This document shows positions 13,393-15,392 of a DNA stretch of 38,433 nucleotides, piece by piece. Source of the stretch: Sphaerobacteraceae bacterium (lineage in GTDB: Bacteria > Chloroflexota > Chloroflexia > Thermomicrobiales > UBA6265); NCBI GenBank assembly GCA_016781925.1, contig JADDPH010000097.1, forward strand, positions 1 to 38,433, read 5' to 3'. Numbering within the stretch: the first letter of the stretch is position 1; every line of letters starts with the position of its first letter. The translations under genes and the position numbers were made by a program. A model generated the notes under the pieces. The model was given only the letters and a program-made list of their open reading frames with translations. It was not told where the DNA came from and ran no database searches.

Positions 13393-14415
13393 TCAAGCAG
13401 CACCCGACCCCCGCAGCGCCTCCAGCACCTCGGCGAGATCAGGTGGCAGCGGCGCCTCGAAGGTTACGTCGCGGCCATCCATAAGGCGCAATCCCAGCTT
13501 GGCGGCATGTAGGAACTGCCGCGTCACCCGCGGCTCATCGTCGCTTTCGCCCGCAGTGCGGCGGCGCCCGTACACCGGGTCGCCGACGACCGGATGACCG
13601 ATGAACGCCAGGTGCACGCGGATTTGGTGCGTCCGGCCCGTCTCGATCTCCACGTCTAGGAGGGAGGCCGTCGGAAATCGCTCCTGCACCGCGAAGTGGG
13701 TCACCGCCGGACGGCCGCGCGTGATCACCGCCATCCGCTGCCGCTGCGCCGGGTCACGCCCAATGGGGGCGTCAACGGTCGCCTCGTCGTCCACGACGAC
13801 ACCGCTCACCAGTGCGGCGTAACCCTTCCGCACCGAGCGATCGTTCCACTGAGCGACGAGTGCGTTGCGGGCCCGGTCCGTCTTCGCCACGACCATCAGC
13901 CCCGAGGTGTCCTTGTCCAGGCGGTGAACGATGCCAGGCCGGTTCGACCCGGCGATAGCGATATCCGGGGCATGGGCCAGCAACGCATTGACCAGTGTGC
14001 CCCGGGGATGCCCGGGTGCTGGGTGGACCACCATGCCGGCGGCTTTGTTCAGGACGATCAGGTCCGCGTCTTCATGGACGATGTCGAGCGGGATCGCCTC
14101 AGGCTCAAGGGCATCTTCGACCAGGGGTGGAGCGTCCACGACGACCACTTCCCCCGGAGTCATCTTGAAGGCGGCCCTCCGCGGTTCCCCATCCACCCGC
14201 ACCCGGCCGACATCGATGAGTTGTTGGACATATGAGCGGCTGAGGTCCTGGAGCGCCTCGGTCACGAAGCGGTCCAGGCGAACGTTGGTGTGCTCTCGGC
14301 CTGGCCGCAACTCGACCACACCGCCGAGCGTCGCGTCGAACTCCTCGTCGGTCGCCGCAAGCAGTGAATCATCGCCGTCGTCGGGGACCGCATTCAACAT
14401 CGCCGCATCGTCCAT
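13393..14415 (-). CDS. RNA pseudouridine synthase, RluA/RluD family
   Basis: It isomerises uridines of structured RNA; RluD itself modifies helix 69 of 23S rRNA. The 340-residue protein has an S4 RNA-binding domain (about 45-95), then the catalytic domain with HRLDKDTSG at 164-172 (catalytic Asp167) and the closing GRTHQIRVHLAFIGHPVVGDPVYG. The frame continues upstream to 14604, but ATG at 14415 is chosen because GAGGTGA lies five bases away and the upstream sequence is lspA coding. The start is five bases from the lspA stop codon, so the lspA-rluD order common in bacteria is kept here, with likely translational coupling. Confidence 0.94.
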   Translation of the reverse strand: MDDAAMLNAVPDDGDDSLLAATDEEFDATLGGVVELRPGREHTNVRLDRFVTEALQDLSRSYVQQLIDVGRVRVDGEPRRAAFKMTPGEVVVVDAPPLVEDALEPEAIPLDIVHEDADLIVLNKAAGMVVHPAPGHPRGTLVNALLAHAPDIAIAGSNRPGIVHRLDKDTSGLMVVAKTDRARNALVAQWNDRSVRKGYAALVSGVVVDDEATVDAPIGRDPAQRQRMAVITRGRPAVTHFAVQERFPTASLLDVEIETGRTHQIRVHLAFIGHPVVGDPVYGRRRTAGESDDEPRVTRQFLHAAKLGLRLMDGRDVTFEAPLPPDLAEVLEALRGSGAA

Positions 14416-14419
14416 CCCA

Positions 14420-14980
14420 TCACCTCTCGGCCGCCGGTGGAGCAGCAGACGGACGCGGCTCGACGTTTGTAGAAAAATCTTGATCGTCTCCCGGTCGCGC
14501 GGACCCAGACGGCTCGACCATAAGATGCCAGGCAAGCAGCACCACGCCGACGGAGATCGCGCTATCGGCAAGATTGAAGTTTGGCCACACCCCGACCTCG
14601 ACAAAGTCCACCACGTAACCCAGCCGAACCCGGTCCACCAGATTGCCCACCGCGCCGCCCAGCAGCAGACCGATGCTGACGGTCAATACGGTGGACGGCT
14701 CATGGACCGTGAGGTAGTAGACGAGGAGGCCAGCAAGCACGAGGGCAGCTAACACCGTGAGGAGAGCACCCTGGCCTCTCAGGATCCCAAAGGCCGCCCC
14801 GGTATTCTCCCCATACTCCAACGCGAGCACCGGCTCGATGATGCCCCAGCGATGCTGCGGTGCCCGGGGGCCGAGCTGATCCTCCACGACCCACTTCGTG
14901 GCCTGGTCAAGCACCAGCACGGCAAATGAGCCAACCAGGAGCCCAACATGCCGCGGTCGTGTGCGCCCTGTGCCCGTAAT
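14420..14980 (-). CDS. lspA: Lipoprotein signal peptidase (signal peptidase II)
   Basis: An integral membrane aspartyl protease that cuts prolipoprotein signal peptides before the lipidated Cys. Four transmembrane segments are visible, and both catalytic Asp motifs are present: GNLVDRVRLGYVVDF and FNLADSAISVG. The NTGAAFGI block is also typical. The usual start is a problem: the frame is open to 15154 but overlaps the upstream zinc-finger gene, and between that gene's stop and the first membrane segment there is no ATG, GTG or TTG. GGAGGAA at 14989-14983 stands just before an ATT codon at 14980, which I give as the provisional start (186 aa). An ATG at 15097 inside the upstream gene is the alternative. 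A C-terminal tail of about 30 residues is extra. Confidence 0.88.
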   Translation of the reverse strand: MTGTGRTRPRHVGLLVGSFAVLVLDQATKWVVEDQLGPRAPQHRWGIIEPVLALEYGENTGAAFGILRGQGALLTVLAALVLAGLLVYYLTVHEPSTVLTVSIGLLLGGAVGNLVDRVRLGYVVDFVEVGVWPNFNLADSAISVGVVLLAWHLMVEPSGSARPGDDQDFSTNVEPRPSAAPPAAER

Positions 14981-15002
14981 GGTTCCTCCGGGGAGGGGCT
15001 CG

Positions 15003-15392
15003 CTAGCGCCCGGCTCGGAGGGCTTGCTCGCGCTCAATCTGGGACTGGCATTCGATGTCGTAGCGGACGAAAGGAAAGGCTTCCAACCGCTCCGCATTGA
15101 TGGGCTTACCGCACCGTCGGCAGATGCCAAACTCGTCGGTATCCAGACGCTCAAGTGCCTCGGTGACCTGCGCCATCACATCCCGCAGGTCACCACTGAC
15201 GGCCAGGATCCGCTCCTGCTCCATCACGTTGCTGCCATCTTCCGCCAGGTGGTTCCCCAGGCCCCCCAGGTTTTGCTCCTGCTCCGCACCCAGCTGGCGA
15301 AGCTCACTATCAAGCCGGTCCAGATCCGCCTGCACCTCGCTCTGGCGGGCGAGGAGCGAGGCCCGCAAAGACTCCCGTGTCGCCGTATCCAT
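15003..15392 (-). CDS. DksA/TraR-type zinc-finger protein
   Basis: A 129-residue protein of the DksA/TraR/YocK group: a coiled-coil hairpin (about 5-80) followed by a C4-type finger. The finger reads ICRRCGKPI with Cys91 and Cys94; the second pair should be C-x-x-C but is YDIECQ, so Asp112 replaces the third Cys and Cys115 is kept. Proteins of this type bind RNA polymerase through the secondary channel or have unknown roles. ATG at 15392 is chosen because the longer frame overlaps murG; ATG 15440 is possible but lacks a ribosome site. It heads the operon with lspA and rluD. Confidence 0.85.
   Translation of the reverse strand: MDTATRESLRASLLARQSEVQADLDRLDSELRQLGAEQEQNLGGLGNHLAEDGSNVMEQERILAVSGDLRDVMAQVTEALERLDTDEFGICRRCGKPINAERLEAFPFVRYDIECQSQIEREQALRAGR

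Follow-up and report, generated by a model that had tools for sequence, protein, structure and literature searches.

To our knowledge, few bacterial genes besides infC start at AUU or AUC. Only two of the three AUU bases pair with the initiator tRNA, and gene callers restricted to ATG, GTG and TTG misplace or lengthen genes with AUU or AUC starts. The AUU start of Escherichia coli pcnB was reportedly described by Binns and Masters in 2002. According to the accessible part of one source, rejection of AUU-type pairs by IF3 is the basis of the infC feedback, and E. coli pcnB is the other known AUU start (PMC9410913). The accessible part of a second source gives about 10% of the AUG reporter output for AUU and AUA starts in Staphylococcus aureus in poor medium (PMC13009471), and that of a third reports that in E. 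coli an excess of IF3 inhibits re-initiation where no Shine–Dalgarno (SD) sequence is present (PMC2268962). Our literature search, with most subscription journals lying outside its coverage, returned no paper describing lspA with an AUU or AUC start.

We analyzed a 38,433-nucleotide stretch of DNA from a Sphaerobacteraceae bacterium (contig JADDPH010000097.1; termed the window), on which lspA lies between a dksA-like gene and a pseudouridine synthase gene (Table 1). LspA scored 128.8 bits against PF01252 (cut-off 25) and 100.9 bits against TIGR00077 (cut-off 73.95), and the gene is the sole match in this 82% complete draft genome. Its translation shows GNLVDR and FNLADS, corresponding to the GN..D and N.AD motifs, which we take to represent the two catalytic aspartates. 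By Pfam and NCBIfam the product is a sound signal peptidase II, predicted to cleave lipoprotein signal peptides. The dksA-like protein matched PF01258 with 38.1 bits, its best NCBIfam match being TIGR02890 (77.2 bits, under the cut-off of that model), and the pseudouridine synthase scored 301 bits against TIGR00005. The latter gene is probably the third gene of an operon, with lspA as the middle one.

Table 1 Features of the lspA locus (positions refer to the window)
Feature	Position	Strand	Remark
lspA, signal peptidase II, read from ATT	14420..14980	-	186 codons + stop
lspA stop TGA	14422-14420	-	
Proposed lspA start codon ATT (AUU)	14978..14980	-	ATC at the equivalent place in the congener
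Shine-Dalgarno-like GGAGG	14985..14989	-	4 nt before ATT; not in the congener
GGAGGAA stretch	14989-14983	-	Upstream of the lspA ATT
dksA-like upstream gene, DksA/TraR-type C4 zinc finger protein	15003..15392	-	Start inferred
dksA-like gene stop TAG	15005-15003	-	22 nt before the lspA ATT
Rival lspA start TTG inside dksA	15035..15037	-	Common to the congener
Rival lspA start ATG, from the original prediction	15095..15097	-	ACG in the congener
RluA/RluD-type pseudouridine synthase gene, downstream of lspA	13393..14415	-	Start inferred from the congener

Frame reading confirmed the original prediction that no in-frame ATG, GTG or TTG lies between the TAG of the dksA-like gene and the first membrane segment of LspA, and the positions it had given for the upstream stop, the GGAGGAA stretch, ATT 14980 and ATG 15097 were correct. 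The first canonical codons downstream are GTGs within the first membrane segment, from which the conserved Asp of LDQ becomes residue 5 or 3, whereas the nearest one upstream in the lspA frame is TTG 15037, 35 bases into dksA. Counted from ATT, this Asp is residue 25, the median being 22 in 52 lspA genes with exactly one SD-supported canonical start. Position 17 of TIGR00077 corresponds to LspA residue 19 on the same count, the model thus beginning about two residues past ATT. Codon scores upstream and downstream of ATT showed hardly any difference. Judged from the sequence comparisons detailed below, translation of lspA quite probably starts at AUU 14980.

The genus sample consisted of two genomes, that of the window (G000) and that of a congener (G001), the LspA proteins of which are 73% identical. 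The congener lspA likewise has no canonical start and carries ATC in the ATT column of an ungapped alignment, the gap to the dksA stop being 22 nt in both species. An AUN codon is thus kept at the start column between the two, ATT in one and ATC in the other. The stretch between the dksA stop and ATT differs at 9 of 24 bases, distributed as 3, 4 and 2 over the three codon positions; it displays no third-position bias and gives no apparent sign of coding, whereas inside lspA the differences fall mostly at third positions. No SD of at least 4 bases was found before the congener ATC, which constitutes the main weakness of the AUU case. The 3′ part of dksA contains unusually few silent changes between the two genomes, and an equally quiet block is found in the middle of the gene; the two blocks with almost no silent differences span 15018–15083, running up to lspA, and about 15200–15260.

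For the occurrence among relatives we took a census across the order and class; of its 120 loci, 117 yielded a total of 133 distinct lspA genes with the full catalytic pattern, which excluded L068 as well as L018, L020 and L137, the latter three having canonical codons. Genes were scored as devoid of a canonical start if no ATG, GTG or TTG put the Asp at 12–43, which held for 4 of the 133 (window, congener, G032 and G039). On a broader set of 80 loci of named genomes the corresponding number was 1/80, the single case (L096) having an ATG at Asp position 52, as has L091, another Dehalococcoidia locus. An alignment-based pass yielded 5/109 (window, congener, G039, L096 and L043, the last with an ATG at Asp position 12). 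A census with a looser motif (19 of 156 lspA genes without a canonical start) was discarded, 15 of its cases being wrong frames or a wrong Asp by eye.

G032 and G039 form a genus (g21) of the same order and another family, and their lspA features a strong SD, AAGGAG, six nucleotides before ATC and no canonical start. The start site comprises 18 identical columns, CAAGGAGTGTTCCATCAA, amid variable flanks in the comparison of these two genomes. As other members of both families have canonical lspA start candidates, two separate gains of the AUN start are probable, and its recurrence in a second genus is modestly surprising. In g21, lspA is divergent from murG and the dksA-like gene is absent between them (L029 in G039, L131 in G032). 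Close to where murG begins, a conserved block may contain a start and SD of its own. That the conserved g21 block represents murG coding sequence was rejected by eye, as the TTG start of murG, with its GGAGG, lies further in and the block is upstream of it. At one more locus (L007, G013), the lspA ATT and the TGA of the dksA-like gene overlap (TGATT), the sole canonical alternative being a TTG inside dksA. Because this TTG gives Asp position 42, the gene was counted in the canonical class; it is a possible third AUU case.

The GGAGGAA preceding ATT had originally been described as a good ribosome site. The stretch is indeed present, but its GGAGG by itself does not exceed chance expectation, as GGAGG at a spacing of 3–10 precedes 1.9% of random positions, and the 4-nt spacer to ATT is short. 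Calculated per codon, the combination of SD and AUN was not enriched in the window genome (2/285 AUN versus 80/8122 other codons) nor in G039 (2/447 versus 51/8630). With codons near canonical starts excluded, an SD preceded 3 of 79 AUN and 25 of 2047 other codons, a weak difference that was not significant (p = 0.08). Since the SD motif is not beyond chance, the weight of the AUU case lies on conservation. The predicted minimum-energy structure places the AUU and most of GGAGG within a 12-nt open loop, and the start region showed no special stability compared to shuffled sequences (z of 0.74 for the window and −1.19 for the congener). Masking of GGAGG by an upstream CCUCC, considered as a further feature, was not supported by the predicted fold.

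An initiation at TTG 15037 within dksA would create an overlap of 35 nt and add 19 residues to LspA. This is a normal start codon, kept in the congener, and relatives of genus g7 (G007, G023 and G027) appear to use overlapping GTG starts for lspA near the dksA end; however, the g7 GTG position reads GAG in the window and GCG in the congener, and no SD is found upstream of the TTG. Moreover, the TTG owes its existence to the Ile-Glu codons of dksA (ATT GAR), the congener dksA reading ATT GAA over it. Between the TTG and the dksA stop 4 of 33 nt differ between the two genomes, and all four differences are silent in dksA and residue-changing in the lspA frame, indicating that the overlap is constrained for dksA only and leaving an N-terminal LspA arm unsupported. 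The Asp would be shifted to position 44 compared to the median of 22, although 4 of the 52 SD-supported lspA genes have it at 44 or beyond. On balance, we consider a start at this TTG unlikely. The original prediction had overlooked this nearer codon, proposing ATG 15097 as the alternative to ATT, with an arm of 40 residues, 39 on our count, read from the overlapping frame. The ATG is in frame and its frame is open, but it reads ACG in the congener and has no SD upstream, and in four family relatives (G010, G015, G020 and G027) this frame meets a stop at most 41 codons from the conserved Asp. The scarcity of silent changes in the 3′ part of dksA would suit such an arm, yet it is not unique to the arm region, given the equally quiet block elsewhere in dksA. 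Comparison of the start regions of relatives thus supported no conserved arm, rendering this start highly improbable, and of the two starts originally put forward it is ATT that gained support, from the ATC of the sister species and that of the second genus.

Other entry points close to or within lspA were weighed as well, comprising ACG 14977, a CTG, the GTGs of the first membrane segment and a frameshift entry from dksA. For ACG 14977 the spacer to GGAGG amounts to 7 nt, better than the 4 nt of ATT, but the congener reads AAG at this place. The GTGs have the merit of being canonical codons, but no SD precedes them, and a start there would leave LspA without most of its first membrane segment. 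No slippery site was seen by eye at the dksA end. We regard this group of starts as very unlikely. A conversion of ATG to ATT by a sequencing, assembly or binning error, of which the original prediction had allowed for a sequencing error, would be compatible with the draft state of the window genome; nevertheless, the congener, a separate genome, independently has no canonical start at the equivalent place and contains a different AUN codon, so that an error of this kind is hardly credible.

Having weighed these alternatives, we return to the start at AUU 14980 and to other genes with AUN starts in these genomes. In the order, infC starts with ATT, ATC or ATA at the same place in all 30 loci read (L191–L220; counted by eye), with ATC in the window genome and ATA in the congener. 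The codon shifts among these three between close relatives and is always AUN; at some of the loci (for example L205, L210 and L220) a GTG or TTG precedes it by two or three codons. Under strict criteria, a scan of 288 G039 genes returned lspA and infC as its two AUN matches, and the same type of SD plus AUN scan in the window genome gave lspA and an AI-2E family transporter. Extended to 480 genes of the window genome, the scan added a CNNM/CorC protein, the weaker matches having an adjacent canonical start or short frames. The sensitivity of these SD-based scans is limited, as infC of the window genome was not called as a gene and is missing from the 480-gene list, and infC of G039 was recovered under one SD rule only. 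An initial gene-start scan, marking 5/264 genes of the window genome and 8/288 of G039 as devoid of a canonical start, was rejected, its hits being broken or frameshifted frames by eye, with lspA and infC absent.

The AI-2E transporter gene (L153; contig C3 of the window genome, position 1998, plus strand) exhibits AGGAGG five nucleotides before ATC, and its first canonical codon is a GTG 84 nt further on. The same AGGAGG-5nt-ATC arrangement is found in the congener (L291), an in-frame stop lying 33 nt upstream in the window genome and 24 nt upstream in the congener. The homologs in G011 (L292) and G019 (L295) have AGGAGG and ATC too, but also an ATG 12 and 27 nt on, respectively. For the CNNM/CorC-type gene (L321; contig C40 of the window genome, position 191, plus strand) GGAGG lies five nucleotides before ATT, likewise a candidate start, shared with G019 (L324, AGGAG-6nt-ATT) and G011 (L323). 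The contig of the window genome that carries this gene shares 97% identity with G011, and misbinning is possible. That AUU and AUC starts in this order extend beyond infC and mark a small, IF3-responsive set of envelope genes for membrane proteins throttled together by IF3, comprising LspA in two genera with separate gains, the AI-2E transporter and the CNNM protein, is a speculative and rather doubtful idea.

In the mechanism we propose, initiation at AUU would use the ordinary initiator fMet-tRNA and would be carried out either by ribosomes that have just terminated on the dksA-like gene, at the TAG located 22 nt upstream, or by 30S subunits that GGAGG has captured. Terminating ribosomes feeding a start 22 nt past the stop may enable the congener to do without an SD. 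The third-base mismatch would weaken initiation and allow IF3 to reject it, resulting in a low LspA output that would track IF3 activity. Based on the IF3 rejection of AUU-type pairs, the reporter output in S. aureus and the inhibition of re-initiation in E. coli, we infer that LspA synthesis is low and IF3-sensitive, and the use of AUU in the cell as well as the coupling to dksA are to be understood in the same conditional sense. If this holds true, weak start codons have been kept to limit a membrane protease, encoded by the single lspA found here, and have arisen in two genera. The similar weak start of the relatives probably keeps LspA at a low level and responsive to a single translation factor there as well. 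Comparison with a congener would then offer a cheap route to more genes with AUU or AUC starts.

Among the known systems, infC of E. coli and many bacteria, encoding IF3, shares the AUN start with lspA, that of infC being rejected by IF3. The original prediction had drawn this comparison, which is apt as far as the codon is concerned, given the ATC and ATA of infC in the window genome and its sister; its autoregulation, however, is not transferable, because LspA is not IF3 and no closed feedback loop would arise, and unlike infC the lspA start is canonical in most relatives. The pcnB gene of E. coli resembles lspA as a non-infC gene with an AUU start, by which, in the accessible part of the source, it is kept low (PMC9410913); it is a different gene, for which experiment provides the basis, whereas comparison alone does so for lspA. 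In S. aureus, cvfC1 (AUU) as well as ccpN and citZ (AUA) have conserved AUN starts, and the accessible part of the report describes extended SD motifs for them (PMC13009471), in contrast to the window lspA with GGAGG only and the congener with none; lspA further differs from these genes in probably being the middle one of an operon. With translational coupling and re-initiation, as far as the accessible part of the source describes them (PMC2268962), lspA has in common the short gap after an upstream stop, although for lspA a coupling is suggested by the 22-nt spacing alone. Judged by its sequence, the lspA AUU start joins a known kind, namely genes with AUU, AUC or AUA starts that are discriminated by IF3, and a response of LspA synthesis to IF3 is predicted.
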